A stretch of 64,000 nucleotides of DNA from Opisthocomus hoazin (lineage: Eukaryota > Chordata > Aves > Opisthocomiformes > Opisthocomidae), in contig NC_134433.1 in assembly GCF_030867145.1 (NCBI RefSeq), positions 16,217,896 to 16,281,895 of the forward strand, given 5' to 3'. The stretch's first letter is position 1; each line of letters starts with the position of its first letter. The position numbers and the translations under genes are program-made. Below the pieces are notes generated by a model. It saw only the letters and a program-made list of their open reading frames with translations, made no database searches and was not told the origin of the DNA. Below, one piece after another: positions 11,701-52,900 of this stretch.

Positions 11701-14700
11701 AAGAAAAAAATTATCATCTGCTCTTAATAACTGTGTACCCTCAAAGCCTTAGTCTGATGCTTTGAAAGCATTCTGAACAGATTGAGGTGGAAGATAATGG
11801 GCAATAATGAGCCCCACAACCAACATTAGCCTGGATGCAGCCCTGACATGCCTCTTGTTTGCAGCTGCGTATTGGCTCTTCATTCCTGGCCTAATGGGAG
11901 CTAAATGCTAAAATCCTCCTTGCTTTGTTGTTGATCTCCCTGGGACGGCACCGAGCCAGTACCAGACTGGAAGAACCAGAAGATGGCTGTGTAGGGCAGG
12001 GCAGGGCAGGGCAGGGCACGCGAGCAGGCCAGCGGCTGGTTACCTTTGGGACCTCTATTTCCCAGATAATGAAGTCAGAATTGCTGGATTTTCTTCCTAG
12101 CTTACAGTTCTGGTGAGTCACTGTCTTCCTCATGGCACAGCCACTGTCCACAAATTCCACGCTATTTATCTCCAAACCTACAAGACATGCAGATGGGTCA
12201 GCCTTCAGACAGCCCACACAACCCAGCTACCAGACACACTGCCACGAAAACACGTCATTTCATTGAGAGATTACATTGAGCTCTTCCTGTGCATTCAGTT
12301 GGGATGTTCCTGTACCTGGTTCGTCAGTATTTCAGAAAGGGTAAAGTCCTGTCACACACAGCCTACTGAAATCTTCCCTTCATTCCTGGAGAAAGACCTG
12401 CATGCCTCTGGGAATGTGACAGAAGGGGGCCCATGTTCGGCAGGAGTCCTTCCGACACCTCACACAGCCGCAGAGACAAGGCACTAGAAGTCAAAGTTAC
12501 CAGCTGAACGAGAGCTATGCTAACACCAACACTGAGCTGCTGCAGCAAGGTATTCTGCTTTTTCCCCATGGCTTACCCGGGGCTCTTCACAGGGAGTTCA
12601 GCAGGCAGGGAGGGACCTGCAGTCTCTTGCCCTGCTCTCTGCTCTGCCACTGCCTGTCCCACGGGCGTTGCGCAGGGACCCGAGCGCCCATCACTAGCCG
12701 TGGTAGGTGGTGGCCTCTTGCCCACATTTCTCATATGCTTCAAGAAACAAGGTGCCAGAGCTGAGCTGTTTGTTCCCAAACCATCAGCCAACACCAGGAA
12801 CATTTCCACTCGGGAAGGGGACAAACTCAAGCAGCTTCCTCCTGGTCAGATCCCAGACAGTCCGTGCAACACCAGGTTGATCCTTACTCCAGATTAACAA
12901 GCAGAAGCATGAAGATCCTCACTTGCTTGCAAGTATTCAGACCATCCAGCGTAAGACCAAAAGGGAAAAACAAACCAAACAGCTGCTCCACGTTTGCCAC
13001 ATCTTAAATAGCAGCACAGCACAGAAGCCCTGAAAGCCAAAGATAAACAGTGCAGCTGTTTGCCATAGACTTCCTAGACGAGGACAAAGACTTAAGTCTC
13101 ACAGCCTGGGTGTGAAGGTCAGCTGTAGGACCTCTTATCCAGCATAGCCACATCATCAACTTTACCTGCTAGATCCCCTGTCCCTACCCTTCAGCTGTCT
13201 CAGTGCAGAGCTTTCAGCCCTTGTCATCACCTGGCTCCACAACACACTCTTGTACCTTGTTGCCACACCAGCATTCACAAGAAGACAAAACCATCCTCTT
13301 CCTCGGTTACTCTCACTAGTGAAAATGTTCTGTGGGTTTAATCCTTAATTGTTGGCACACTCAATCCCCACGTCTTGCAACAAGTAGCGTTCCAACTACT
13401 TTGTAGCAATTACAAAGACATCCTGTCATTATGGTCTGTTGGCACCACAGGGTCCTATAAAGGATTTTCACATCCACCCCCAAGGTCACACAGGTTAACA
13501 TTTGCCCAGGCAGCTTTGTATTCTGCCAGGCACACAGCATCCAGGACCTAGAAGGCAAGAGCAACACAGAGACAGATGGAGAAACTCCACGAACGTTGCT
13601 CCCTGTTGGGATTTCTTGGCATGCACCTACCCTTCCAAGCTAAAGGGCTTCAGGGTAATTGGTCTGCAACCAACTGATTTTATCACAGTTCATCAGAGCA
13701 CTTCCCGGGTTCGTCCAGCAGCACCTCAGAAGCCTGCCTTACAGCTTCCTTTCAGCAGCAGCCCACAGACACAGATAAGAACCCAGTACTTACTAGAGGC
13801 TGCCTGAACTTAAGCAGAAACCACGTGTATTAGCAGGTCTCAAACCAGCAAGGTGCTCAGCAGCCTGGCCGACATCCAGGCACCGTCCATTTCACTGGGC
13901 CACTCCAGAACATGGTTAGCTTTGGACAGTACACTTTGTGCCGAAAGGGGACCGGCCTGTTCACCCCCTGCAGTACACCCTGAGGATCACCGGGCTAACA
14001 CTGGATCCTACAGAGATGCGAATTCCCAGAGCAAAGGCACACCCACCTGCACCAGAGGGCTACCTACTCATCCACTGGGGCAGTTAACATGAAGAGGATT
14101 TATCCAAACATGTTCTGAAGCAGAAGGGTTACAGCACGTAAAATGCACATTCACCACGTTTTTGTAGGAAGATTTTCAAATCCCTTACCTCCTGAGTGAT
14201 CTTCATCCATCCCTGCTGCCCTGCTACACCCATGGCACAAGTCTGGACCATCCTCTTTCAGTATCCCATTACTGTACGGTACTTCGCTGTCTTCAAGTAG
14301 CTTCAGAGTAGGAGGCTTTTCACCCGGTACTAAGTTCTGCTCAGCAGACGTGTCTTGGATGGCAGATATGCTCAGCGAGACCAAATGCTGGCCTGACGCG
14401 ACAGCCAGCATCGTGTTCTGCAACGCGTCCTCAACACTTGTGCCACCTTCGGATGCATACAAGCTGCACACAGAGTCCTCCATAACCAAAGGCAACTTTT
14501 CCAGTGCCTCTCCATGGTTTTCCACAAGAGTCCTATCAACTCCTCTGGACTCACTGCACACACGGTTCTTCATCCGACAGTCTTCTGTGTCTCCCTGAGC
14601 AGGGCCAGATAAACAGCCGTGTGTTAAACAGCTGGAACCTGCCACACTCTGAACCTGTTCCCCTGTCTGCAGGGATGTCAGTACCACAGCATCACTCTTT

Positions 14701-15980
14701 ACAGCAGTGTTCTCATCTGCTCTCGTAGCCTCCTCCACAAGCACCTTGGAGGAAACAAAGCTGGCCATCTCCAGAGGTCTCTCAACTCGGCCGGCAGCAG
14801 CCTGGCAGATCCGAGTGGACCCATCGCTTGCAGAACCAGACAGCACCTCCTCGCTGCACACGCTGTTCTCCATCCGACAGTCTTTTGTGTCTCCTTGAAC
14901 AGGGCCAGATAAACAGCCGTGTGCTGAACAGCTGGAACCTGCCACACTCTGATCCCATTGCCGTGTTTGCAGGGATGTCAGTACCGCAACATCACCCTTC
15001 GCAGCAGCGTTCCCATCTGCTCCCGCAGCTTCCTGCACGAGCATCTGATCAGAGGAAACAACACTGGCCGCCTTCTCTCTTTCCAGTTCATCTTCTTTTG
15101 GCTGTGCGTCCTCCTCCTGACACACAGGTACAGTACTGGCAATTGGCTCAGACATCTCTTCCTCCCTGGACAGCTCCAGACAGGCAGGCTCCAAGCTATC
15201 CGGTAACACGCTCACGGCAGAATCCTTGTGACTTGATACAACTTCAGTTTCACTATTGAGAAAGGCTTGTGGGGTACTGGCTTCCTTCTCCCATCCCAAG
15301 CAGAGGGCTGTCACAGAGCCAGGATCCGACAGCACAGTTTCTGGCATCTTGCTTTCCTTAGGGGGCTTAAGTGAAGAATCATCTGACTGCTCTGCATTGC
15401 TGTTCTCTGTGATTCCCAAGGGCTTTTGCGTCAGTGTCACCGATGCTGACGGCCACCGGTCTTGGTTTGCACTAGAGCCCGAATCCTGTACGAGGCTCAC
15501 TGCTGCACTGCCGTGACACTCTGCGCTCTCTGAGACCAGAGGGAGAGAAACACAAGCAGGGATGCTGCTTTCATCTTCAGATCCTATTGTTTCTAGTTTT
15601 TCACTGTCGTCTTCCAGGGTGCTGGGCTGAATAGTCGTTACTGACAGGTCTGGAAGGTCCTGTGAGAGATCTAGCCTCTCGTGACTTCGACACAGAAGAG
15701 AGGGTGTCGTCGACCCTGCTGACAGCAGGGAGGTCGAGGTTTCATTCTCTGGGCATTCCTCTTCAGATGAGACAGGCAGTCTTCGAGGAACATGTGCTTC
15801 TGTTCCGGCTGTTGAATCATTCTCTGGTACTTCTTCCAGGTGCTCTTCTTCAATGGCTATTGCCTGTTTGTCGTGATAGCTTGCATGCTTTTTTCTATGG
15901 GAATAGATCCACCAGCAGCTAAGAAGTGCCAGCACTCCAGGTATGGCATATGGCATGAAACTGCGGAAGCGTAAAGCCAT
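2698..15980 (-). CDS. AKAP1: A-kinase anchoring protein 1, mitochondrial (AKAP1 / D-AKAP1 / AKAP149)
   Basis: AKAP1 tethers protein kinase A, and by its KH and Tudor domains RNA, to the outer mitochondrial membrane. Ten coding exons: 15980-14189, 12177-12044, 10618-10492, 9926-9796, 7428-7251, 6551-6401, 5745-5678, 3820-3747, 2956-2891 and 2751-2698. All phases agree, giving 924 residues; human AKAP1 is about 900. Residues 1-31 are the membrane anchor: basic residues, a hydrophobic segment (about 9-26), then SHRKK. Residues 30-600 are acidic, Ser-rich and probably disordered, with a tandem repeat (about 303-378 and 404-478). A KH domain spans about 637-705 with the GKQG loop, and a Tudor domain spans about 780-840 with [11 protein letters not shown]. 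The start is the ATG of MALRFRSF, matching the mammalian N-terminus; an in-frame TTG six codons upstream was not used. Oddities are a GC-AG intron after exon 6 and a C-terminus shorter than I recall for human. Identity is secure. Confidence 0.96.
2891..2956 (-). CDS. AKAP1: AKAP1 exon 10
   Basis: 66 bp, phase 0 to 0, bounded by TTCCAG and GTGTGT. It encodes [20 protein letters not shown] then DE. Confidence 0.92.
2957..3746 (-). other. AKAP1 intron 9
   Basis: Between exons 9 and 10. It contains GC-rich patches with short antisense frames that have no homology I recognise. No RNA gene or repeat seen. Confidence 0.6.
3747..3820 (-). CDS. AKAP1: AKAP1 exon 9
   Basis: 74 bp, bounded by TCCAAAG and GTACGC. 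It encodes [20 protein letters not shown] then VLVAQ. Too short to stand out as an open frame; placed by homology and phase. Confidence 0.9.
3856..3935 (+). repeat. Probable ancient amniote interspersed repeat fragment
   Basis: The stretch around GGCCAGAAGGGACTATTAAG, then CATCTTGCCCAACCTCC and GGCCAGGGAACC, resembles a diverged repeat common in reptile and bird genomes, which I believe is a CR1/L3-type 3' end. It lies 36 bp upstream of AKAP1 exon 9. The family name is from memory. Confidence 0.4.
3936..5677 (-). other. AKAP1 intron 8, remainder
   Basis: Apart from the solo LTR at 4233-4636 I see no gene or RNA in this intron. The short open frames on either strand do not resemble known proteins. 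Confidence 0.6.
4233..4636 (-). mobile_element. Solo LTR, same family as the retrovirus at 16615-23224
   Basis: 404 bp, alignable end to end with the two LTRs of the nearby retrovirus. It shares the GGCAACAAAAGCGCCACG block, the GGGATAAGGGCAGTTTAACA block and the GTGAAAATTAACCCTG...CCAAACCCAGGACA end. It starts TGTTATGG rather than TGTCTTGG and lacks the TGACGTCA site. Flanks are GTGG and TACAG, so no target duplication is visible. It lies in AKAP1 intron 8 in AKAP1 sense orientation. Confidence 0.9.
5678..5745 (-). CDS. AKAP1: AKAP1 exon 8
   Basis: 68 bp, bounded by TTTAAG and GTAATG. It encodes [20 protein letters not shown], part of the Tudor/SNase-like fold after the core. Confidence 0.93.
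6401..6551 (-). CDS. AKAP1: AKAP1 exon 7 (Tudor domain core)
   Basis: 151 bp, bounded by TTGCAG and GTCTGT. It encodes [20 protein letters not shown] and then [15 protein letters not shown]. The Y-x-D-Y-G core is the Tudor signature. Confidence 0.95.
7251..7428 (-). CDS. AKAP1: AKAP1 exon 6 (start of extended Tudor domain)
   Basis: 178 bp, encoding [20 protein letters not shown], then QQHTHPTF and SLDQQM...TPVE. The acceptor is GCGACAG. The donor is AAG|GCAAGT, a GC rather than a GT donor but otherwise a perfect match to the consensus. The neighbouring exon phases fit only this junction. Confidence 0.93.
7962..9578 (+). mobile_element. CR1 LINE, 5'-truncated, internally deleted
   Basis: Plus-strand copy of the avian CR1 non-LTR retrotransposon, opposite to AKAP1. 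It begins within the reverse transcriptase ORF at GAGGACTACAAGGATGTC. It keeps the RT block [20 protein letters not shown] (about 8710-8770) and the end [11 protein letters not shown]...[12 protein letters not shown], but with frameshifts and stops throughout, so it is dead. At about 9513-9523 several hundred bases of the usual 3' ORF end are missing: the ACCTTATC segment joins straight to the terminal TTGGACTTGATGATCTTAGA. It finishes with the typical ATTCTACGATTCTAC end. Confidence 0.93.
9796..9926 (-). CDS. AKAP1: AKAP1 exon 5 (KH end and linker)
   Basis: 131 bp, bounded by TTCCAG and GTAAGT. It encodes [20 protein letters not shown] followed by a Pro-rich linker ending LLMTAW. This is the last KH helix and the connection to the Tudor region. 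Confidence 0.94.
10492..10618 (-). CDS. AKAP1: AKAP1 exon 4 (KH domain core)
   Basis: 127 bp, bounded by ATCAAG and GTAAGT. It encodes [20 protein letters not shown] and then [11 protein letters not shown]...ICHIEG. GKQG is the RNA-binding GxxG loop of a type I KH domain. Confidence 0.95.
10619..12043 (-). other. AKAP1 intron 3
   Basis: No repeat family or RNA gene recognised. It contains the pentamer array at 11993-12016. Plus-strand open frames here (11072-11329, 11364-11765) show no homology I recognise. Confidence 0.6.
11993..12016 (+). repeat. GGGCA pentamer microsatellite
   Basis: About five tandem copies of GGGCA, reading CCCTG in the AKAP1 transcript. It starts 26 nt downstream of the exon 3 donor, close enough to matter for splice-site recognition. 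Confidence 0.85.
12044..12177 (-). CDS. AKAP1: AKAP1 exon 3 (entry to KH domain)
   Basis: 134 bp, bounded by TTGTAG and GTAACC. It encodes VEFVDSG...[12 protein letters not shown], the strand that opens the KH domain, and ends in phase 0. A short GGGCA repeat lies 26 bp beyond the donor. Confidence 0.92.
12178..14188 (-). other. AKAP1 intron 2
   Basis: No exon, repeat family or RNA gene recognised in this 2 kb. The open frames are short and unlike known proteins. Confidence 0.6.
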
Positions 15981-16004
15981 TTTACAGAGCCTCAGCAATT
16001 ATAT
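14189..16004 (-). CDS. AKAP1: AKAP1 exon 2 (first coding exon)
   Basis: The acceptor is a pyrimidine tract followed by CTAG at 16005-16008. There are 24 nt of 5' UTR, then ATG at 15980-15978. The exon encodes residues 1-597: the mitochondrial anchor [20 protein letters not shown], then the long acidic region with the duplicated segment. It ends in HSGG just before the GTAAGG donor, leaving phase 1. The segment [14 protein letters not shown] near the end also resembles mammalian AKAP1. Confidence 0.95.
14550..15074 (-). repeat. AKAP1: 300-bp in-frame tandem duplication within AKAP1 exon 2
   Basis: Sequence around 14850-15070 recurs around 14550-14770 at an offset of exactly 300 bp for most of its length. 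For example CATCCGACAGTCTT is at both 14571 and 14871. A 3-bp indel sits at the upper end. In the protein the pair is about 303-378 and 404-478, sharing AVLTSLQT / [23 protein letters not shown] and DCRM. Both copies stay open, so the repeat is part of the protein. Confidence 0.92.
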
Positions 16005-16614: not shown

Positions 16615-17019
16615 TGTCTTGGTTTCGGCTGCCGCCGGCAACAAAAGCGCCACGCGGCCGCCCCTCCCCCCGCCGGCGTGCGGAGGAGAATGGAAAGAAA
16701 GAGGCAGAAACCGGTGGGTCGGGATAAGGGCAGTTTAACAGAACAGCAAACAGAGGGAAACAGGAACAACAACGATACAAATAAGGAGAAAAAAACCACA
16801 ACAACGAACCGCAGGAACCAGACAGCACCGGCACCGCGCCCCCCCCAAGCCGCGAGAGCCTTCCCGCCGCGCCGCCCCCCCCACCGGAACCCAGCGTGAC
16901 GTCACACAGTATGGAACACCGGGCTCTGTTTGGCCAGGTGGGGTCAGCCCCCACCCCCCGGCTGTGCCCCTTCCTGGATTCCGGTGAAAATTAACCCTGT
17001 TCTGGCCAAACCCAGGACA
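16615..17019 (-). repeat. 3' LTR of the endogenous retrovirus
   Basis: 405 bp. In element sense it starts TGTCCTGGGTTTGG and ends CCGAAACCAAGACA, giving the standard TG...CA ends. It holds TGACGTCA (16897-16904) and a GC-rich block. It ends 610 bp upstream of the AKAP1 exon 2 acceptor, in the same sense. I found no AATAAA or ATTAAA on the sense strand. Confidence 0.95.
16897..16904. promoter_or_regulatory. CRE palindrome TGACGTCA in 3' LTR
   Basis: A perfect ATF/CREB consensus palindrome, also present in the 5' LTR at 23102-23109 and lost from the solo LTR. Binding is inferred from consensus only. Confidence 0.55.
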
Positions 17020-17040
17020 TTATCCACCCCTTATTCCATA
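17020..17040 (-). other. Polypurine tract of the retrovirus (imperfect)
   Basis: In element sense the bases before the 3' LTR read GGAATAAGGGGTGGATAA. This purine-rich run is where plus-strand DNA synthesis would be primed. It is interrupted by T, so it is weaker than a classic tract. Confidence 0.55.
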
Positions 17041-17512
17041 CCATCTACGTCATGCCCAGGTCCCCCATTGTCCAGTTGATCACCACCACTTCTCCTGTCT
17101 CCAGATATCATTCCCTTAGTCTATGGATCATCACTCTAAAGTGTCCGTTGAGTTCATTTAATCCATGACTTCGGGCTCCATCTGTCGTAATGGTCTTCCG
17201 TGGCAGGAGAGGTGATGCGTGGTGATGGGCGGTCACTTGCTGCTTCCGGAGCTCACGGCTGATGTATCTGGTGCGGCCCGTGCCCACAGTCTGCAGGAGA
17301 TGTTGATCTTGATGAAGTTGCGGGATGCCAGTTGTTGAAAACCAGGTCCAGTTCCATCATCGCTGTGCTCTGCTAGGTTTTCATCGAAAAAGTTCATCCT
17401 TCTTTAATCTGGACAATTCTTACTATGCTACTACTGGTACAAAATATAACAATTATAACAGTGATAACAGACAGTGACAGGGTTATTTAACAACTAACTT
17501 TGTACAATTTAT
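17041..17512 (-). other. Retroviral region after pol, no env
   Basis: About 470 bp between the integrase stop codon and the polypurine stretch. No open frame of note and no envelope-like signal peptide, furin site or fusion segment. It appears to be 3' untranslated sequence of an element without env. Confidence 0.7.
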
Positions 17513-18772
17513 TTATGGACTATTCTCGCCCAAAATTAAATCCCCATGAGGTACACATCGGACTTCCCCATCCTTCCGCATTACCCACCAGGTACACCCA
17601 GGTCCTTGAGCAAAAGCAATCCCGCAGACGGGCTTGCCTTTGCCCGAGGCAGGACTAACCCAAACCGTCTTCCCTAACATGTTCCGCATGTGCACTACAG
17701 GGACTTTATCCCCTTCCACGGGGCGCTGAGGTTTTGACTGGGCAGGACCAGCCCGGTTGGTGGACCCTCTGGTGTTAACCAACCAGGTGGCCTTTGCTAA
17801 ATGGGTATCCCAATTTTTGAAAGTCCCACCCCCCACTGCCCTCAAAGTGGTTTTTAGCAGCCCATTGTAACGTTCGATCTTTCCAGAGGCTGGTGCATGG
17901 TAGGGGATATGATACACCCACTCGATACCGTGTTCTTTGGCCCAGGTGTCTATGAGGCTGTTGTGAAAGTGAGTCCCGTTGTCCGACTCGATTCTTTCGG
18001 GGGTGCCATGTCGCCACAGGACTTGTTTTTCCAGGCCCAGGATGGTATTCCGGGCGGTGGCATGGGGCACAGGGTAGGTTTCCAGCCATCCGGTGGTGGC
18101 CTCCACCATTGTGAGCACATAGGGCTTGCCTTGGCGGGTCTGTGGCAGTGTGATGTAATCAATCTGCCAAGCCTCCCCATATTGATATTTTAGCCATCGT
18201 CCTCCATACCACTGAGGCTTTACCCGCTTGGCTTGCTTGATTGCAGCGCATGTCTCACATTCATGGATAACCTGTGCGATGGTATCCATGGTCAAGTCCA
18301 CCCCTCGGTCACGAGCCCATCTGTATGTCGCGTCTCTTCCTTGGTGGCCCGAGGTGTCATGGGCCCACCGAGCTATAAAGAGTTCACCCTTATGTTGCCA
18401 GTCCAGATCCACCTGAGCCACTTCAATCTTAGCAGCCTGATCTACCTGGTGGTTGTTTTGATGTTCTTCAGTGGCCCGACTCTTAGGGACGTGGGCGTCC
18501 ACGTGACGGACTTTTACAGCCAACTGCTCTAGCCGGGCAGCAATATCTTGCCACAATGGGGCAGCCCAGATGGGTTTGCCTCTGCGCTGCCAGTTGTTCC
18601 TCTTCCATTGCTGCAGCCACCCCCACAAGGCATTGGCCACCATCCAAGAGTCGGTGTAAAGATAGAGCACTGGCCACTTCTCTCGACTGGCAATGTCTAA
18701 AGCCAGCTGGATGGCTTTCACTTCTGCAAACTGGCTGGACTCACCTTCTCCCTCGGCAGTTTCCGCGACTTG
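17513..18772 (-). pseudogene. Retroviral pol, RNase H end and integrase
   Basis: Continuation of pol, in the same frame, after an in-frame TGA at 18775-18773. The first part is the rest of RNase H, with the conserved Glu soon after the break and the Asp in YTDSWMVA. Integrase follows: an N-terminal zinc-binding domain (H-x4-H in AHDTSGH, C-x2-C in CETC), the DDE core with Asp in WQIDYI, Asp in ESDNGTHF and Glu in GKIERYNG, and a C-terminal domain ending near DLILGENSP with TAA. All three catalytic acidic residues are present. No dUTPase follows. Confidence 0.88.
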
Positions 18773-20698
18773 TCATGTAGGGCTCCATACAGCAGCCTTC
18801 CACCTCCGCTGCTTCCCCACAATGCGACAGGACCCATCCGTGAACAGGGCATACTGTTTCTTATCTTCTGGCAGCTGGTTATACAGTGGGGCCTCTTCAG
18901 CACGTGTCACCTCCTCCTCTGGCGATGCTCCAAAATCTTTGCCTTCTGGCCAGTCCATGATTACCTCCAGAATTCCTGGGCGACTGGGGTTTCCCATTCG
19001 GGCGCGCTGGGTGATCAGCGCGACCCACTTACTCCACGTAGCATCGGTGGCATGATGCGTAGAGGGGACCCTCTCTTTGAACATCCAGCCCAGGACCTGC
19101 AATCGTGGAGCTAGGAGGAGCTGTGCTTCAGTGCCGACCACTTCTGAAGCACCTCGAACGCCTTCATATGCTGCCAGAATCTCTTTTTCGGTGGGAGTAT
19201 AGCGGGCCTCGGATCCTTTGTATCCCCGGCTCCAGAACCCCAGGGGTCGACCTCGAGTCTCCCCTGGTGCTTTCTGCCAGAGACTCCAGGTTGGGCCATT
19301 CTCCCCGGCTGCGGTGTAGAGCACGTTTTTAACATCTTGCCCTGACCGGACTGGACCAAGGGCTACGGCATGAACTATCTCCCGTTTAATCTGTTCAAAT
19401 GCCTGTCGTTGCTCAGGGCCCCATTCAAAATCATTCTTCTTCCGGGTCACGTGGTACAGAGGACTTACAATCTGGCTGTAATTTGGGATGTGCATCCCCC
19501 AAAAACCCACAACACCCAGGAAGGCCTGTGCTTCCTTTTTGCTGGTTGGTGGAGACATAGCTGCTATTTTGTTGATGACATCCATTGGGATTTGACGGCG
19601 CCCATCCTGCCACTTTATTCCCAAAAACTGGATCTCTTGTGCAGGTCCCTTGACTTTACTTCGCTTAATGGCGAAACCGGCTTTCAGAAGGATCTGAACT
19701 ATTTTCTCCCCTTTCTCAAAAACTTCCTCCGCTGTGTCGCCCCATATAATGATGTCATCGATGTACTGCAGATGTTCTGGGGCTTCATCCTTTTCCAGTG
19801 CAGTCTGGATTAGTCCATGGCAAATGGTGGGACTGTGTTTCCACCCCTGGGGCAGTCGATTCCAGGTGTACTGGATGCCCCTCCAGATGAAAGCAAACTG
19901 TGGCCTGCACTCTGCTGCCAAAGGGATGGAGAAGAATGCATTAGCAATGTCAATTGTAGCGTACCACTTGGCTGCCTTTGACTCCAGCTGATATTGAAGT
20001 TCTAGCATGTCTGGCACGGCAGCACTCAGCGGTGGTGTGACTTCATTCAGGCCACGGTAGTCTATTGTCAGTCTCCACTCTCCAGTAGATTTTCTCACTG
20101 GCCATATGGGACTATGAAAGGGTGAGCGAGTTTTGCTGATCACTCCTTGACTCTCCAGTTGATGGATCAGCTGATGAATGGGGAGAAGGGAGTCTCGGTT
20201 GGTACGATACTGTCGCCGGTGCACCGCTGTGGTTGCAATTGGCACCTGTTGTTCTTCCACCCTCAGCAACCCCACAACGGAAGGATCCTCCGAGAGACCA
20301 GGGAAAATGGACAGCTGTTTAATTTCTTCCGTCTCCACAGCAGCTATGCCAAAAGCCCACCGATACCCCTTTGGGTCCTTGAAATACCCTCTCCTAAGAT
20401 AGTCTATCCCAAGGATGCACGGAGCCTCGGGGCCAGTTACAATGGGGTGCTTCTGCCAGTCCTTCCCAGTGAGGCTCACTTCAGCCTCCAGTACACTCAG
20501 CTCTTGGGACCCCCCTGTCACTCCCGAAATGCAAATGGACTCTGACCCTTTGAACTCTGATGGCATTAAAGTACACTGTGCACCAGTGTCCACTAGAGCT
20601 TTATACTCTTGTGGATCTGACGTGCCAGGCCACCGAATCCACACCGTCCAATAGACACGGTTGTCCCTTTCCTCCACCTGGCTGGAGGCAGGGCCCCT
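18773..20698 (-). pseudogene. Retroviral pro-pol: protease, reverse transcriptase, RNase H start
   Basis: Same reading frame as gag, beginning right after the gag UAG and with no AUG of its own near the start, so expression would be as a Gag-Pol fusion. The protease has the active-site motif ALVDTGAQ near the start and a glycine-rich flap-like ILGIDYL. Reverse transcriptase follows with WRLTIDYRGLNEV, LPQGW and the catalytic YIDDIII. The connection and RNase H start include FTDGSC. The frame is stopped by TGA at 18775-18773 within RNase H. The change is consistent with CpG decay, as the codon begins where a CGA would fit. The break is described only. Confidence 0.9.
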
Positions 20699-20701
20699 CT
20701 A
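20665..20701 (-). promoter_or_regulatory. Gag-pol UAG with downstream stem-loop, candidate readthrough signal
   Basis: The gag frame ends with UAG (20701-20699). After a 5-nt spacer there is a stem: CCCU (20693-20690) and CCUCCA (20688-20683) pair with UGGAGG (20676-20671) and AGGG (20668-20665) around a GCCAGG loop. Pol continues in the same frame. This layout matches stop-codon readthrough as used by gammaretroviruses. The function is inferred. Confidence 0.55.
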
Positions 20702-22690
20702 ATCCTCGTCAGAGAATTTGCTGCTCACCTGCTGTAAAAATGACTTGGAGGTCCCCTCCAGAGGATCGGAATCAAGGTCAAACTGTCTACCTGGTCTGGA
20801 GAGCTGGCTGCTGGAAACTGGAGCGGCACTTTTCCTAACAGAATCCCCTTTTGTGATTGTTTTACCTCGCAACTCACGGACTCGTGCCTCTAGACTTGAG
20901 GTGGGTTTTCCATCCCACTTCCTCATGTCCTCTCCGTGGTCACACAGGTAGAACCACAGGGTGCCCCGGGGTGTATAGCCTCTGTATTCCCTCTCCTGAG
21001 CAGAGAAACGCCTGCCCCTAATAGCTGAGACACTGGCCCGTACAGGTGGGGAGTAGGACATATTCCTGTCTAGTCGCTTGACCAGTTTCTCCACGGCTGA
21101 GACAAGGGAAGAAGAGAGACTTTCCTCATATTGGCGGAGTCTGACAGCCACCTCGTCCACTGTTGGTGCGTCTTTACCTTTCCAGTTTACAACTGCCAGT
21201 GAGTTGGCATGCGAGGAGGGTGCACTCCGCACAAACTTCCTCCACATGGATTGTGAGCACTGGAGTTCATCTGGGTCTGTGGGTACCTGCTCATCGTCTG
21301 TGTCACAGTAAACCAGCTCCCGCACAGCCAATTCCCTCAAGTACTGAATACCCCTTTCCATATTGGTCCACTTGCCAGGATAGCATACAAAATCGTCACT
21401 GAAGGGGTACCTCTCCCTCACGCCTGACAGAAGTCTCCTCCAGAGGCTGAGGATTTGTTCCTTTTTCCCAATGGCCTTGTCAATGCCCCCATCCCTGGCC
21501 AGGGATCCCAGCTGCTTGGCTTCCTTGCCCTCTAACTCCAAGCTGCTGGCCCCGTTATCCCAGCACCGCAGCAGCCAGGTGGCAATGTGCTCTCCTGGGT
21601 GGCGGCTGAAATCTTTCCGCATGTCTCGCAGCTCGCCCAGGGACAGGGACCGGGTGATGATCTCTGTCTCTATCTCCCGTGATGACCCTGGCTCATCGTC
21701 ATCCCTCCCGGAGCGATCTGCTCTCTTTGCATCTTTCTTTAGTTTTACAGGGGCGACTGCTACCGGCACAGGTTGGTCATTGGGCTCAGCTGCGATGCCT
21801 GCAGCTGGAGCTGGGGCTGGAGCAGCTGCTGTGCCTGCCAGGGAAACCGAGGCAGACCCTGCAGCTGTGGCTGCAGCAGCCGTGGTGCCAGTTGGGGGGG
21901 CTGTGACTGCCTGCTGGGCTGGAGGGGCTGCAGGGCCGCCTGGGGGGGCAGCGCCAGCCGCAGTGCCTGCTGCTTCGTTTCCCCCTCTTTCCCCTTTAGG
22001 GCACTGAACAGTGTTGAACAGGGCTCGGTAGGCGTGGGCCAGACCCCAGCACGTTGCAGTGATTTGTGTCTCTCTGGAGTTCCCCGGGTGGCAGCACACT
22101 TTTTGCAGATATTTTACTAGACTGTCTGGATTCTTTATTTGTTCAGGGGTGAGTTTAAAAAACACCGGTGGTGCCCACTGCCCTAGGTACTTGCCCATGT
22201 TGTCCCACACACCCAGCCACTCACAGCTATCCGGCCCCGGGGCAGGTCTCTGCACGATGTTCTTAACGACTTGCTTAACCCTAAACAAAACCTGCAACCC
22301 ATTCAGGAGGCATAACAAAAGGAGAGTGCTGCCCTGAGCATCCCACGGGTACTCGAAATTCTCAAAAGCAGTTAGGACCAGCCTGAGGGAGAGAGGGGGG
22401 GCGAAAGAGTGGGGGAAGGTATCCCCTTCGGCTTTCTCCACAGGCTGGGTTTGATTATTAACAAATTCTAAGACATAGGATCCAAGGTATGGAAATGACC
22501 GTAGTGCCGCATGCAAATACAAGACTAATTTCATGCACAGTGATGTTATCATATCATAAGTCGATATCGTAAGGTAGAGCAAAATTATCATCCTGATCTT
22601 TTTCCCAGCGATGATGAACAGCACGGCATTGAATACATACTGCAAATAAGGATTCAGAAACCACAGCCATCTGATCAAAGACAGAAACAT
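20699..22690 (-). CDS. Retroviral gag
   Basis: An intact frame of 663 codons from ATG at 22690 to TAG. It encodes the structural polyprotein that would assemble particles. The N-terminus is unusual: residues 1-28 and about 33-63 are strongly hydrophobic, like two membrane segments, and there is no Gly at position 2 for myristoylation. Residues about 235-315 form an Ala/Pro/Gly-rich linker. Residues about 345-560 (from LGELRDMRKDFSRHPGEHIA on) look like a capsid-type helical region. I see no C-x2-C-x4-H-x4-C zinc knuckle. The tail ends in acidic SSKFSDED. It is followed in frame by pro-pol. Confidence 0.85.
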   Translation of the reverse strand: MFLSLIRWLWFLNPYLQYVFNAVLFIIAGKKIRMIILLYLTISTYDMITSLCMKLVLYLHAALRSFPYLGSYVLEFVNNQTQPVEKAEGDTFPHSFAPPLSLRLVLTAFENFEYPWDAQGSTLLLLCLLNGLQVLFRVKQVVKNIVQRPAPGPDSCEWLGVWDNMGKYLGQWAPPVFFKLTPEQIKNPDSLVKYLQKVCCHPGNSRETQITATCWGLAHAYRALFNTVQCPKGERGGNEAAGTAAGAAPPGGPAAPPAQQAVTAPPTGTTAAAATAAGSASVSLAGTAAAPAPAPAAGIAAEPNDQPVPVAVAPVKLKKDAKRADRSGRDDDEPGSSREIETEIITRSLSLGELRDMRKDFSRHPGEHIATWLLRCWDNGASSLELEGKEAKQLGSLARDGGIDKAIGKKEQILSLWRRLLSGVRERYPFSDDFVCYPGKWTNMERGIQYLRELAVRELVYCDTDDEQVPTDPDELQCSQSMWRKFVRSAPSSHANSLAVVNWKGKDAPTVDEVAVRLRQYEESLSSSLVSAVEKLVKRLDRNMSYSPPVRASVSAIRGRRFSAQEREYRGYTPRGTLWFYLCDHGEDMRKWDGKPTSSLEARVRELRGKTITKGDSVRKSAAPVSSSQLSRPGRQFDLDSDPLEGTSKSFLQQVSSKFSDED

Positions 22691-22793
22691 TTTTACCGGC
22701 GACTATTTAACACAGAAAAATGCATATAACAAAATTTAACAAAATCTAAGAAAGCTGTTTTAACACCTGCTGCTCAGCCCTGCCGTTATCCCT

Positions 22794-22812
22794 GCCCCAC
22801 GCTTGGGCGCCA
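22794..22812 (-). other. Primer binding site, tRNA-Lys type with one extra base
   Basis: Reads TGGCGCCCAAGCGTGGGGC in element sense, 6 nt inside the 5' LTR. It matches the tRNA-Lys(1,2) complement as I know it except for one inserted G after the tenth base. Confidence 0.7.
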
Positions 22813-22818
22813 AATTAA

Positions 22819-23224
22819 TGTCTTGGTTTCGGCTGCTGCCGGCAACAAAAGCGCCACGCGGCCGCCCCTCCCCCCGCCGGCGTGCGGAGGAGAATGGAAA
22901 GAAAGAGGCAGAAACTGGTGGGTCGGGATAAGGGCAGTTTAACAGAACAGCAAACAGAGGGAAACAGGAACAACAACGATACAAATAAGGAGAAAAAAAC
23001 CACAACAACGAACCGTATGGTCCAGACAGCACCGGTGCCGCGCCCCCCCAAGCCGCGAGTCAGTTCCCTCCGCGCCGCCCCCCCACCACCGGAACCCAGC
23101 GTGACGTCACATGGTATGGAACACCGGGCTCTGTTTGGCCAGGTGGGGTCAGCCCCCACCCCCCGGCTGTGCCCCTTCCTGGATTCCGGTGAAAATTAAC
23201 CCTGTTCTGGCCAAACCCAGGACA
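22819..23224 (-). repeat. 5' LTR of the endogenous retrovirus
   Basis: 406 bp, TG...CA ends, closely matching 16615-17019. It carries TGACGTCA at 23102-23109. Differences from the 3' LTR cluster at about 23024-23030 and 23058-23066. Confidence 0.95.
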
Positions 23225-43847: not shown

Positions 43848-43990
43848 TCACACAATCTTTTTGATGCTGTGACGTTTGAAACTGCCCGCGCTGCGCTGCT
43901 TCTGCACTTGGCTGGCGGAGCCGTGGCGCATCCTCCCGCCGCTGGCGTGTCCAGCGCTGGGCGAGAGCTCCACGTTCTCCTTGTCGATCC
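43848..43990 (-). CDS. NF1: NF1 last coding exon
   Basis: 143 bp of coding sequence; acceptor TCCGCAG. It encodes [20 protein letters not shown], then [18 protein letters not shown] and IKKIV followed by TGA (43850-43848). It is GC-rich compared with other NF1 exons here. Confidence 0.97.
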
Positions 43991-46900
43991 CTGCGGAGAC
44001 ACAAGCACCGGTGACCCACGCGTGGCCCGGAGGACGCTGCTCCCGCAGGTCGGGGCAACAGCCCCGCAAACCGGCGTGCTGGCCGGCAGCGGCTCGTCCA
44101 AACCAGCGGTGCCGCCCCGCCCGGGAGAGCGCTGCCGAGCCGGGGCCTCTGCAAACCCCGACCCAGGATCTGCAGGAGCGCCGCCCCGCAGCGAGGTACG
44201 TGCCAGGCACCGCTCACTCTTCCCCCCACCCCAGCGGGGCTGGAGTGGAGAGGAAGAGTCAAAAGCAAGAAAATGGGGGCAAAGATTAAGAAAATGATCT
44301 AATAAGTGAGGAGCTCCCTGCCCTGCGCAAACGCTGCTCGGCCCCACTCTGTGCTGGTCACGGAGCGGAACCACAGCCCCACGCCAGCCGCTGGAAACGG
44401 ACCCCAGCGCAGCCGGGCGCGGGACACTGGGTTAGCCGACGTCCTACAACCTCACTGCTGATGGTGCCTGACAAACGGCAGATCTGAGGCAGCTGTTTTA
44501 CTGCAGCTCTGTGGTGTTTTTTCAGGATCTGATGTACAATCTGATGTTCAGTGGAAGCCTGGACTTTGACCAGATACGACACCTCCCCAGGTTACAGCGC
44601 GATGCCGGCTCACGCAGACGTATGCACTCACCTACACACAACGTGACTCGCATGACGCGTCTGAATACTCTTCCCTGCCCCCCCCCAGTTGCAGACAGAG
44701 TTTGATGTTAGTTTAATCTGCCTCCAACAACAAAAGACAAAATACTCTGGCCTACAGGCACTGGCTGATCTATTTCAATCCGTGCTACTTCCCTGAAACC
44801 ATATGAAAATAGAGAGGGGTATGAACTGTTCACTGAGTGCACCTTACAGCTCTTGAAACAGAAATAGGAATTTTATTTCGTATGGGAAATAGCACTCAAA
44901 AATGTTCACCTGGCAGATGAAGGGTTCCCCTCCATCCGCAAAGCATTCGCACCAGCACCCGTACCCACGGAACACACCAAATGCAAGCCCTCCCTTCCTG
45001 ACGCGTTCTGAGAGGACCAAGCAATGACAGAGTTTGACTCCAGGCTCTTCCAGCTGTTGCGCTCTCTAGGAGGAAGAATCGACAGACTCGGATCTGTCTG
45101 CTCCTTCCAGCCAAAAATCCACGACTGCTACGAAACAGGGGAATGGCGGAGTGGGGAAGGCTCAGTTCTGAACCCGCAGAACTCTGCTGCAATGGCAGAG
45201 GCTGATTCTTGCTACCAGGGAAGATCCGTATGTATTCGAGCACCTAAAACTCCCCTCCACGCTGAATCTTGGCTCACAAACGAAGATCAGTACAAGTACA
45301 GAACGTACAAATCAATGTCTGGAGGACTCTGTCTCATTGCCAGGAGGCAGGAAAGGCTCAGCTGGCTTCTTTTGCACACAGCAGAACAGAACTGATGCAG
45401 GTATTCACTTCCAGAGTGAAGTGTCCAAGTGCAGACACCAATTGCAATGATGTAAACTCTGGCGAATTGAGAGTAAAAAAAAAGAATCAACATTAACTTC
45501 TAACAAGGACAACTACAGAACCAGTTGTCTAAGCAGGGTGTTAACAGGAAACACAGCGGGAACAGAGGAGTCTGGAAATCCTTCCAAGATCTGCTGTCGC
45601 AGAAGTTCAGCTCCACCAAAAGCAGGAGGCAGGTTATGGCGTACGAGCTGTGGATGGAACCTGACGGGCTTTATATCGCAGTGCACACTCTTTTCTGTGA
45701 AGCTTTGGACGTTCTCTGCAGGACAAAGTAACTCTATTATGTTTTGCTGAAAGAACAACACCAAACCAACCTCAAAATGAACTGCTTTAGCCTAAGTGTC
45801 ATGCTGACGTGACGACAGCACCCGAAAGCCTTGCTGTGAGCCATTAACTCCAACGCTTTGGACACGGGAACCTGAAGATATAAAAGCTGAGACTTCCGTC
45901 TAACACAGACATGCTTCCAATCAATTATTACTTCTATGCTCACGCTACCATGAGTTAATTGTTCCTGCAGCAGTATCTCAGTGTAGCTGTCACACTATTT
46001 CTGCAAAAAAACGGGTACGTTTGACGTGTGTTTGGCAACACTCTCCACACTTCTGGTACATGTGCAGCATCAGAATGAATAGCAGGAGGGGTGCTTTTAT
46101 GCGAGAGGCTAAAAGTACCATCAGCAGCAAAAATTACAATGTCTGACAGTGAATAAAGAGGTTAGAACAAAATCCTATTACTGTAAATGACATATCCCAC
46201 AGTTATGTCTCGTTCCCATAAGAAACTGATTCTGACTGGCATTAGCAAGAACAAAGACCGCTCTGCATTGCACAGACGTATAGGGACAATTCCAAAGCTC
46301 CAGCCAGAAGCCGGCTGCAGGCTACATCGTCCTTCCCCTCCTCGTATGAGCTCACAAAAACCACACACTATGATGGGAATAGGAAGCAACCCACAGGTGT
46401 GAGCAAAAAACCCTCTCCTGCAGCTTTTTCTTATTTCTCCATACAGCAGCAGAAATCCAGCGGTGCTGAGTACCCACTTGAGTGAGCTTCTGTCTGCTGC
46501 AATTTCGTCCAAAGAACTCCTGTCTGGTTGCCGGTAGCGGGTCACTGAAGTTACAGCTGACTCCCTGTGAACCTAAAGAGCTCACATGAAACAGTTCTTC
46601 ATTTTAGCTTCACTCCTGCAGCGGAGCAATTTCACACACCAAGCAGCCAAATCTATTCCCTATTGCCAAATCTATGTCCTCCTTACGCATCTGACTGACC
46701 TGCTTTGCCCGCACTGTCATCGGCTGTTACTAGCATCACACAAGGAAAGCCACAGCTTTGCACTTACATTGCAGCCATTCCCATCTCAAAAGATCAGTGA
46801 ACCACTTCTCACGCCACAAGCCCGACCGTGAAGCAGCAGATCAAGCAGTATTTTGTGCAAATACGATGAAAGTAGTGTACCTTGATGAGGAAGCTGCATG

Positions 46901-49900
46901 AAAGCTGCCTATTTAGAGCAAGGCAGAGAAGCTTCACAGACACAGAATGAAAGAAAAAAATGTAAGTGAACCATGTCCACGACAAGGGGAAGGGAAAGGA
47001 GAAGGGACGATGACAGACAAAACATTTCTAAAGAATGATCTCACCTAGTTGCCTCCAGATGCAAGAAAACATTTTTTCATCTATCTGCAACTTAATATAT
47101 TTGTAACCATAATAAACAACTCACTTGGCTGAAACTAACTTGGTGTGAAGAAGTAACTCAGCTAAATACTTGATTCTCTTGCCCAGCAGCTCTCACATCC
47201 GCGTAAGGGGATGACAGATCTGCATCCCTTATTAGTCCCACAGCTGCCTTGCTGTTACAACAAATCCTGTGGCCCACCTCCACGTTCTGTGACTCTTTCA
47301 GCAATGATTATCATCTTGGCAGGCATCAGGTCTTCCACCGCTTCCTCCCTCGCTCTCGTCTCTACAGTGTAAACATGACAGCAACGACAATGCCATCCCA
47401 CACCTCTGGGCACAGCTAATGAGAATGCAAAATTCATGTACGCAGCCATAGAGCTGTACGAAGTGCCAGAGACCAATTACATTTTTAATACAATTAAACA
47501 ACGTAAGCAGCAAAGCATGTTTTATGCTAAGTTGCACTGGTTAACGTACCAGTTTAAACTAGTGAAACTGTACTTGGACTAAAGTGGAGCAGTGTGATAA
47601 ATATGGGATGAAGGAGCAGAACGAAAAGCTCCGTGTCGTGACCTGGTCCACAGCTTGAGAGAGCTGGAGATCCTGATCAAACCCCAAGGCTTTGTATTCA
47701 AACCGCTAGACTGACGCGAGCATGCTCAAGGACATGGGCAAGACACTAATGAACCGCAAGCGATGATGGGCAAACGCCGCTTGGACTGCACAGCAAGAGC
47801 AAGGCTTTCGTAGAGCAGTCAGCACTCCAGGCTGTTCCACACCAGCCGGAAACACCTGGCAAGGCCGACTCTGCATAAAGATGCCTCCAGTCTGGTTACA
47901 GAAAAATGGAACCGTTCGTAATCTCCTGGCCTTCATATTGGTCTTTCAAAATTTAATTTCCAAGCAAACCATGCCCAGAGCGTCACAACTGCATTGGCAC
48001 AGACCCCACAGTCTCCTGAACACGCTCACTAGCTCCTAACTCCAGCCATGGGCATGGGTTTGTAACCAGCGTTTGCTAAAAGCCATCTGTTTGCAGAACA
48101 CTTAAAGAAATTTTTGACGAGCTGGATTGTTTCCTTCCTCTTAGCTAACAAAGGAAGAAGGAATAGAAAGTGAGGCATAAGGAAGGAAGACATTCACGTA
48201 GTGAAGCGCTTTTTTCACTAGTAGAGGGCCTAATTCTGCATCACCACTTCATCCTCGCAAAAAGAACCGGCAGAGCTGCCGCCGACACCACGTTCTGAGT
48301 GGAAAGATGCTGCCATAACGTGCCTGCTTTCACACTGACAGCAAGGGCTATTTTTTCCCTGTTTAATTTTATCCTTCTCCCTGTTCTAACATCACAGATA
48401 ATTCTTAGCTGTATATTAAATAAGAAAGTTTCTATTGCACCACTTTCCTTTTCCATAACCTTGGTTGTTATCTGTACCTGCAGTCTGTTAGGAGTTTTAA
48501 TACAGAAATATTTCTATATACCAGACGAATTGCATGACGATATAATACAGAGGCTGCATTACATATTCATAACATATAACGGACATAGTGAACTGTTAAG
48601 TAGAACAGCAGTCTGTAGAACTCCTTCAAACTCAGCTTCTGCCTGTTCCCATCACCCAAATCCCACGGGATTCCCGGACGGCCCCAGGAAGCCCCTTTCA
48701 GGCCAGCGCTCCCGGTGTTCTCAGGCAGGAACACAGGACAGGGAACAGCAGCAACAGCTGTCTCCTTCAGGCTACAAAGTAGCAGAGAAAGAGGTAACAA
48801 CTGGGCAAAATATGCTTCATCCCACTTTCTCTCCTCACTTTGGATAATGGTATTTAATGGAACAAATCATCTTGAATTGGCAGGAAACTGGAAAGCAAAT
48901 CCTGGTTTGAGTCTATTTAGACCGACAGGCATCTTCAAATCGAAGTCTAGAACACAGCACCAGTGTCAAGAAGGCGATCTCCCCAGATCTGAACTGTTTA
49001 AACTGGCTTCTCATACTGGGAAATATCAAGTAGTAATCATTTTTCACTGCATTAAACAGAAATCCCTATTCCCAAATACTCGCACACAGAGCACTGTCTC
49101 CCCTCTGCACGTGCCTCGCGCCTGCGCCACCCACCACAGCGCACAGAGCACACGCGCAGCATCTCTGAGCAAAGCGGTACCCAGAGGAGCAGATTTCTCG
49201 CAGAGAGCTAAATGAAGCTCAGCAGAGCTCACTGCAGGGCCGGCAGAAACCAGCGAACAAGAGAGTGAAAAAACCCAGCACCCTCTGTAAATGTGACCCC
49301 TAAACACAAATGGTTTCCAGCCCTCCATCGAGGGTAGCAACAAAGCAGAAACAAAAGTCGACTGACTTCAGTGTTTGGAACTGCAACAGCTAAATCATCC
49401 TTTAAGAAGTATCACACAGTATAACTTCTATGACAAAGAAGAGTAAAGAACCTCCTCAGTATACCAGACACTAATCCAAAATCACTTCAGGAAGAGTCTT
49501 CATGCAGATTTCTTTGACGTAAATTCCATTTTCTTCCTATATTTAACTTCCTCTAGCTTATGCCTCATCTGCTATACTGAGTAATTTTTACTCTCTTTTT
49601 TTCATTTTTCACCCTGAACGTTTATGCTGTTGAATTTAACCCCTGCATTTCCCTGGAACCCCCTTCTCCCCAAGCCAGAAGGAATTTAGTGGGTTTTTTC
49701 ATTTACCACCTTTGATGGCTATTGTTTTCCTGAATGCCTTCATTTCCTCAGCAGCATGTTTCTGACAATCCAATAGTCTGAACTGACCCAGCATTCCACA
49801 CATATCCCCATGAACACTTTTCTTCCTTCAAGGGAGAATACGACCGCCATGGATGCTGCCTACAAGAGCCCTGGCATAAATCATCTCGTCAGCTGCCACC

Positions 49901-52900
49901 GTGCCAGCCCAGACACCCTCTTCCAAGGCACAGTGCCGCACTATTTTTCCTACTATGTGCTACCTTGGAGTGCCCAGACAGGTGTTATTCTCCTTGCAAA
50001 ATATCGTTCTTGCATATTTATATTTATCAGTTTACAAGGCTCCACTGCTGCATATGTTCCACATCAAGATGCAGTTGCCGTTCGTTCTGATGCATTGAAT
50101 GCTATTTCTGTCACGTGTAACGACCTGGAAGACAGCTTTGGTGCTGGACAAAATCCAGCATCGGAAAGAGCAGTGCAGCAGCTTAGTGAACAGTTTGATC
50201 TTCATTTGACTTCAGAATGCAGTGATGTTTGATGCACAAACACACCCAAAGAGACGAGGAGACTAAGTGTTTGGCTACAAAACCAGTAAATTCACTACGT
50301 TTCCCTCATGGATGTAGTACCAGAAGAGCTACTGACCTGGGGAGTGCTGGGAAGTCGCGAGCGAGGTCATGGAATTGGAAAGGTTAAGGTTAGCAGTAAT
50401 GCTAAGCTGGCTCTGCACTGCAGGAGGATACGGAGATGTGGGCGTCAGGAGAGATTCTTCACTGGTCTCCTCATCAATTCCAGGCAAATACGTGTCAATC
50501 AAGGCATCAAGAAACTTCACTATGAGCTCAGCATAATCTGGGATTTGTGTTTGCTGTGGGTGACAGGACAGGGAAGGAAAAAAAATATTACATCTTTTCT
50601 TTCTACTTGTCTGTCCATATGAGCTTCGCCCCAGAACTCACTCTAATACCGCACTGGTTTTCCGTGAAAATTTTAAGAAGCATTTGGTGTGAGTATGCGT
50701 AAAACCTGATCTGTGGTCTTTGCCAGATTAATCTAAATGCACAACTAAAGACCACCTGTAGGCATAATTTCAGGAGTGCGTGGAAGGACGAAGCCAAAAA
50801 GCAGAGACTGCTTGGGCCCTGAGGTGAGCTGCCACCGCCCCCCGCCCCCACCCCGCTCCCGAAGGCCACGGCCCCGTGCGCTGCCTCTCCTGCTGCGATG
50901 CCAGAGGCAACAACCGGCAGCACAGCTGGCCAGTGCTCGATGCATTGGTTCTGCTGTAACACTGAACTTATCCTTACGGAATTCTCACACCAATTATCAG
51001 CTTAATCCCCTACACTGTAAGAGGGACACAGCGAACCAAGGACTCTGAACTACGCTGCACACCCAAGGCCCCTCAGGGAATTTGGGAGCAGTAGCCAGGT
51101 GCCTTCCCACACCCGACTGCTTCCACCCAGCTTCGGGAACTGGACCTTACTGAGTCTATCAAGGTATCTGCTGCAGGCTCAGAAACTGTTGTACCTATAA
51201 AAGTGAGCCTGACATTGCTAACTTTCTTGTATAAATTCTACGGCTTGTCATTTATCAGCATCTTTCCTGGAGCACCAATGTGCTTTACACAGAAAATGAA
51301 GACAGATCACCCATGAATTTATACACAGTGTGCTGTTCTTACCTTAGAAAATGGGCCAGCGAACCTCCATAACCCATTAAATCCGAAACCTACAACAACA
51401 AATTGAACGTTAGCACAAAACCACAGTGGTCACCTGACAGAAAACAACAGAAAGTACAGGCAGGTCATCACCGGGACTCGCTTAGGCACGGAAATGAAAT
51501 ATTTTGAGTTGGAAACGCAACACTAGATGCTGTCCAAACCATGTAGAAGATAAAATCCCAACATTTTAATTTGTATATGAAATACGTGAGTTAGAAAAAC
51601 CTTGAGATCTCAGGACTGTTATGCAAGAAATTCTGGATGGTATTTTAAAAGGTAAATTTAGCCTGTGAATACACATTTCACTTTAAAAGTTACATCAACA
51701 TTTACGTTTTTCTCAGCTGTCATCTGTTTCTCATGGATCTTCCTGGCAAGTTCTTGATTAAGGACTACAAAAAAATATTTAGGTTTTAAGTGCTGACGTG
51801 TCACATGAAATTGAGCTTATGCACTGAAAAACAAACACTGTTCTATGGAATTTACCAATAGTTACATCAACCCCTAACTTACAAGGTTAACTTAAAACTC
51901 ATCGTTTATCACCACCATTCATGTTCTGTATTTCTCTGAATTGGTTAGTGGAAACAGAATACTGAGTTTCAACTTCTTTGGACTCATGTACATGGTGTAA
52001 TACTTTTAATTTTTGGTGCACAGCTGCAGCAAGCAGTTTTGATATTCGTGTCAGCAGGGTTTTATTAACACACAACTCTTATTTTTACTAGGATATATGA
52101 CGTTGGAGAGATGCCACACGAGACTGACTGCCTGTTCTATTAGGGCTGCAATAATTTTGAAACATTTTCGGTAGTAAATCTGACTTAAAATACAGCGTTT
52201 TTAAAAAAAAAAAAACAGGAAAATATTTACTCTGTAGATAAGAAGTTTGGTACTGGGGTGGAGACTCTTCATGGTAGACAACACTCTGAACAATCCCATG
52301 AATCGGATTCAACAAATTTGGATCCTGGCACAGCGATAACAGGGTATTGATCTTGGAATCCAATAAATTATGCCTGAAGAAAAGAGAAGTGGCTTGGTTT
52401 TTGTTCATTAAACAAAATAATTCTGCAGTTCCCAACTGACTTTAGCAAACAGCAGTTCAGGTGGGATTTTCAAAACCTCCGTGATTTCAGAAGCAGAACA
52501 CAATTCCTATACATGGTCAGCGAGAACTCTTACGATCTGTAATACTTTCGAAAAATTGTACCAACCAGATAACCCATTAAAGCATTTACCTAGCACTTGA
52601 AATTGCAAGTATTTTAATTGTTTTCAACCAGAAAATTATTCACTGGATCTGTGCACATGTCAGAGCTGGAATTTCAAGGCAGCTTTTTACAGGGTTCTGC
52701 CTCGTTCGAGCTCCCTTGCGGATCTCATGCACTTTTGGGGTTTTTTTATACAAATGCCAGTTACTTACAATTGTGGTTTCAATAAGTCACAGAACTTGTA
52801 TGTGGCTTTGACCATTACTTTATAAAGCCAGAAAAAGGTAGCGTCATTTTTAACTCAGGCACAGGTCAGTTTTAAAAGTCTACTGATGTTAATCTCTGAT

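Follow-up and report, generated by a model that had tools for sequence, protein, structure and literature searches.

Introduction

Is exon 48a of NF1 still a working insertion exon in the hoatzin (Opisthocomus hoazin), or has an in-frame stop codon left it decaying or turned it into a switch? The question arises from the window, a 64,000-nucleotide stretch of hoatzin DNA, in which an initial annotation had recognised such an exon. According to excerpts of PMC7692384, known exon 48a has 54 nt, encodes 18 residues and is expressed in heart and muscle, in agreement with the 54-bp muscle-enriched mammalian exon that the annotation had described; parts of the same paper and of PMC4171599 describe it as a tissue-specific muscle exon. 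For chicken, as one of several species, the excerpts of PMC7692384 note types 1 and 2 but not type 3. The literature searched, which excludes most subscription papers, yielded no account of exon 48a in birds or of its evolution, and the human 48a peptide had no match in its text.

Results

The NF1 gene and its surroundings

The 3' part of NF1 occupies the minus strand of the window, where 18 exons were mapped with a grouse model (Lagopus muta, P0009). All 17 introns are of the GT-AG type. At 16 of the 17 junctions the spliced residues nearby agree fully; at the remaining junction 22 of 23 positions do. The joined exons give 837 codons with a single stop at the end, and the NF1 gene itself is therefore intact; its product is identical to the grouse model at 830 of 837 residues. 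Five of the seven differences fall in the last 46 residues, within the last coding exon, where one stretch reads SPTAGHTNSGRMRHGS in grouse and SPTAGHANSGRMRHGS in songbird models and the window differs. The penultimate exon ends at CCAG/gtcagt (50337; the slash marks the exon border) and the last exon begins at cag/GGATCGAC (43990).

Elsewhere in the window, an endogenous retrovirus lies on the minus strand (16615-23224), with separate frames for RT and RNase H (18776-20698) and for RNase H and integrase (17516-18772) and a 667-codon frame (20702-22702). Its direct repeats (16615-17019 and 22819-23224) are 96-97% alike, and this similarity points to a rather recent insertion. The repeat occurs a third time at 4232-4636, in an older copy (62-63% alike) that is probably a lone LTR. 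The minus strand also carries a KH-domain exon and a 615-codon frame within 10463-15998; the frame, which we take to be like the AKAP1 N-terminal exon, contains an internal direct repeat (14550-14746 and 14850-15046, 86% alike).

A 51-nt segment with splice signals and an in-frame TAG

Inside the last NF1 intron (50336 to 43991), the minus strand holds a 51-nt segment (46931..46881) with an AG acceptor, a GT donor and a phase matching both flanking exons (Table 1). Read 5' to 3', its flanks consist of a CTTAC motif, branch-point-like by its consensus, a pyrimidine tract and the AG, with GTACAC after the exon. Spliced between the neighbouring exons, the segment reads ...SQHSPASLPCSK and then a stop, the TAG being its codon 8 (46911..46909, minus strand). 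The coordinates, 51-nt length, AG, GT, phase, peptide and TAG given by the initial annotation were all recovered, on the minus strand throughout, and the stop that it had placed about 30 nt before the final junction is followed by 28 nt of the exon.

The annotation had described a good pyrimidine tract with an AG acceptor and a GT donor. All three are there, but both sites score weaker than this suggested: on a hand-entered weight matrix the donor reaches 0.39, against -1.7 to 7.1 for 17 constitutive NF1 donors, and the acceptor reaches 0.9, against -0.1 to 8.9 for 17 NF1 acceptors. Both would thus be weak sites within the range of constitutive NF1 sites. Past the exon end, the models that read through in monitor lizard, whale shark and shad continue with residues G-T and imply a G/GTAC donor, and the window has G/GTACAC; the gar models (R-Y-S) do not fit such a donor, so that three of four read-through species fit. 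A weak, old donor would suit a regulated exon.

Table 1. Features of the last NF1 intron and its borders (window coordinates).
Feature	Position	Strand	Basis or remark
Penultimate NF1 coding exon, ends in phase 1	50337..50553	-	grouse-model mapping, sequence
CTTAC, branch-point-like motif, 31-35 nt upstream of exon	46962..46966	-	sequence
AG of 3' splice site	46932..46933	-	sequence; matrix score 0.9
Exon 48a orthologue, 51 nt	46881..46931	-	tblastn with kiwi peptide, 15/17 identities; sequence
In-frame TAG, codon 8; serine in 54/54 models	46909..46911	-	sequence, model comparison
First exon bases after two internal AGs	46904..46908	-	46908 leaves 28 nt and shifts the frame; 46904 leaves 24 nt in frame (AFMQLPHQ) and skips TAG
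GT of 5' splice site (AAG/GTACAC)	46879..46880	-	sequence; matrix score 0.39
Stretch related to kiwi further exon, presumed neutral yardstick	45562..45713	-	stop, 4-nt frame slip
Last NF1 coding exon, with TGA stop; tail residues 36 and 41 correspond to human S2808 and S2813	43848..43990	-	

The segment corresponds to exon 48a

The kiwi exon peptide ASLPCSKSAVFMQLPHQ matches the segment at 15 of 17 residues with a score of 77 (tblastn against the window, E 2.6e-10). The next best place in the window scores 31, and 12 shuffled kiwi peptides reach at most a score of 40 and 8/17 identities, so the match is not due to chance. The peptide is related to ASLPCSKSAVF..., as seen with kiwi and with the 54 models described below, and the segment shares the last NF1 intron, the phase-1 borders and a length divisible by 3. 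Identity by descent is close to certain, and the annotation's recognition of exon 48a is borne out by the kiwi residues, the intron and the phase. The reading frame is closed by the TAG and the tail is not kept; the segment is accordingly an exon 48a orthologue by descent, yet no working insertion exon. A scan for the exon pattern in GTDB genome contigs and viral contigs gave 0 matches, as expected for bird DNA.

Exon 48a across vertebrate NF1 models

NF1 models were collected by three protein searches, the first scoring the last exon only (285 proteins, best 120 used), the second scoring the part of a turtle model around 48a (best 120 of 179 proteins used) and the third for fragments of 102-325 residues (54 proteins, all taken). 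Among the 217 proteins fetched, 54 match, close to the C-terminus, a 48a pattern in which S6, K7 and F11 are fixed and residue 8 may vary; the remaining 163 do not match it and were left out of the count. By listed names the 54 models represent 34 species: 17 ray-finned fishes, 11 frogs and 2 caecilians, with a single species each for whale shark, turtle, monitor lizard and kiwi. Several models are isoforms of one species and hence not independent. This range would date exon 48a back to the divergence of sharks and bony vertebrates.

All 54 models have serine at residue 8, where the hoatzin has a stop; at residue 10, 52 models have V and two have I, against A in the hoatzin. Residues 6-8 (SKS) are invariant throughout, residues 6 and 7 being fixed by the search pattern. 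Since every model has serine at residue 8, the TAG is the derived state, and we infer that it entered the bird lineage later than the divergence from kiwi. The peptide has 17 residues in the kiwi, monitor lizard and turtle models and 18 in frogs and sturgeons. Because the former three share the 17 residues, the 51-nt length is a sauropsid form rather than damage.

The lack of neognath 48a models in the protein searches was not taken as a sign of loss: none of nine mammalian models checked carries the peptide either, despite the presence of the exon in mammals. Clustering of the database at 90%, with most birds in one cluster (P0009, 735 members), accounts for such absences. Several ray-finned fish models (P0118-P0122, P0137-P0141, P0148-P0150) have another insert before 48a or the last exon, related to VYRRSPT...; no credible trace of this fish exon was seen in the window, the best tblastn match (E 0.36) lying elsewhere in the window.

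Eight of the 54 models continue past 48a with something other than the canonical tail, or end there: those of kiwi, monitor lizard, Salmo, whale shark and shad, two of gar and a 200-residue trout fragment. All eight were predicted automatically, and clustering of a database tends to leave unusual isoforms as entries of their own. Even so, 48a may be an old way of reaching a different C-terminus.

Age of the damage

In the kiwi model 48a is followed by another exon, of 54 residues, which matches the same hoatzin intron at 45713-45562 in the right order and on the right strand (two tblastn pieces, E 4e-5). The related stretch (45562-45716 with its cag acceptor at 45716) has a broken frame, and GT is absent at its aligned end. 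Taken as a yardstick, it agrees with kiwi at 20 of 52 residues, whereas 48a does so at 15 of 17 (Fisher one-sided p 3.3e-4); it is one 52-codon stretch found by search, so that its identity is if anything overstated, its neutrality is presumed, and it could itself have been constrained or unusually fast. On this comparison a long-dead relic, which should have diverged like neutral intron, was ruled out.

In simulations, whose starting exon has two assumed codons and in which kiwi is represented by a protein model, the yardstick fits about 0.35-0.6 substitutions per site, and 48a would keep 15/17 residues there with P <= 0.0015. Free drift of 0.15 gives a probability of 0.14 for keeping 15/17, and drift of 0.2 gives 0.03. 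These values indicate that exon 48a stayed under constraint over much of the period after the divergence from kiwi; a loss covering part of the bird's own branch would be compatible with drift of 0.15 to 0.2. The TAG is either fairly young or carried by an exon still kept.

Predicted consequence of inclusion

A stop codon more than 50-55 nt before the last exon junction generally triggers nonsense-mediated decay (NMD). With 48a joined straight to the last exon, the 28 nt after the TAG fall inside this limit, so the mRNA is predicted to escape NMD and to be stable. If a further exon followed 48a, as in kiwi, the stop would lie beyond the limit and NMD would be expected. Inclusion would likely end neurofibromin in ...SPASLPCSK, seven residues replacing a 47-residue tail. 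The NMD escape and truncated neurofibromin that the initial annotation had envisaged thus follow from the sequence as a prediction, and its figure of 47 lost residues holds with the split glycine counted. No fragment with this ending occurs among the 54 short matches, which is weak evidence in a clustered database.

The human chain has 2818 residues and its SPG ends at 2772, so tail residues 36 and 41 are S2808 and S2813; the hoatzin counterparts of both are serine. In excerpts of PMC7692384, S2808 is phosphorylated by PKC-epsilon for nuclear entry, and S2813 is named for 14-3-3 together with S2576, S2578, S2580 and T2556. Only S2813 of these five residues falls in the lost tail.

Discussion

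The reading we consider probable is that the segment is an ancient optional NF1 exon 48a, recently nonsense-mutated and probably mostly skipped, rather than a selected switch. The ancestral exon would have acquired the TAG at its serine codon and recently lost its insertion function, and residual inclusion would give neurofibromin without its tail, lacking the counterparts of S2808 and S2813. As expected of decay, both changes at conserved residues (S8 to stop, V10 to A) would damage the peptide. Against decay, the intact splice dinucleotides and the codons kept past the stop would also fit a maintained switch, the gar models are at odds with the GTAC donor, and the hoatzin window is the sole neognath sequence showing the exon among those examined.

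That a bird lineage made the 17-residue insertion exon a regulated truncation, with tail-less neurofibromin in muscle, is unlikely. Such a switch would account for the kept splice dinucleotides and most codons, for a TAG close enough to the last junction to leave the mRNA predicted stable, and for the eight models without the canonical tail. However, recency accounts for the kept codons as well, the eight models carry the caveats of automatic prediction and clustering given above, the ...SPASLPCSK ending is absent from the short matches, and the RBFOX motif GCATG does not occur within 400 nt of the exon. Were the switch real, an insertion cassette would have turned into an NMD-proof switch that removes the phosphorylated neurofibromin tail, and the muscle form would be freed from PKC-epsilon and part of 14-3-3 control.

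An assembly error or a rare allele of the sequenced individual has a small probability: a single window is the basis, but a second conserved residue (V10) is changed too, and the 18 exons run through 838 codons without another stop.

Splicing to an internal acceptor could rescue the frame, since the GCAG before 46904 is correctly placed to skip the TAG and to leave an in-frame 8-residue exon with the tail kept. We regard this as very unlikely, as that site scores only -1.53, whereas the AG that the TAG creates before 46908, 4 nt further upstream, scores 3.93, more than the exon's own acceptor, and its use would shift the frame into a different tail. It is just as improbable that the exon acts as a poison exon, with a further exon after 48a placing the stop far upstream of the last junction and the mRNA being destroyed; the kiwi model has such an exon and the hoatzin intron a related stretch with an acceptor, but the latter carries a frame slip and a stop and lacks the GT at its aligned end.

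The least probable reading is RNA editing of UAG, a favoured editing triplet, to UGG, which would restore the reading; an edited stop calls for stable double-stranded RNA around the site, but no editing hairpin was found around the exon, where 591 nt fold less stably than shuffles (z +2.18) and nearby inverted repeats measure only 10-19 nt.

A bird without the 48a reading frame would be a natural knockout of the type 3 insertion, and what this insertion and the last 47 residues contribute could be tested in the heart and flight muscle of the hoatzin.

Poison exons, that is, NMD-coupled cassette exons, are likewise cassette exons with an in-frame stop; the hoatzin exon differs in that its stop lies 28 nt from the last junction, where NMD is predicted to be inactive if the last exon is joined directly. 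With nonsense-mutated, decaying alternative exons it shares a coding origin, a lineage-restricted stop and splice dinucleotides that are still there, although its residues and donor remain near the ancestral form. The kiwi NF1 model with 48a (P0132) has an exon of equal length with 15 of 17 residues in common, and differs by serine at codon 8 and by the further exon after 48a. Mammalian exon 48a, found in neurofibromin types 3 and 4 according to parts of PMC7692384 and PMC4171599, lies in the same intron, and the models examined have the same phase and a closely similar peptide; the hoatzin exon departs from it by the TAG at codon 8, by the change of V10 to A and by its 51 nt, as in other sauropsids, instead of 54.
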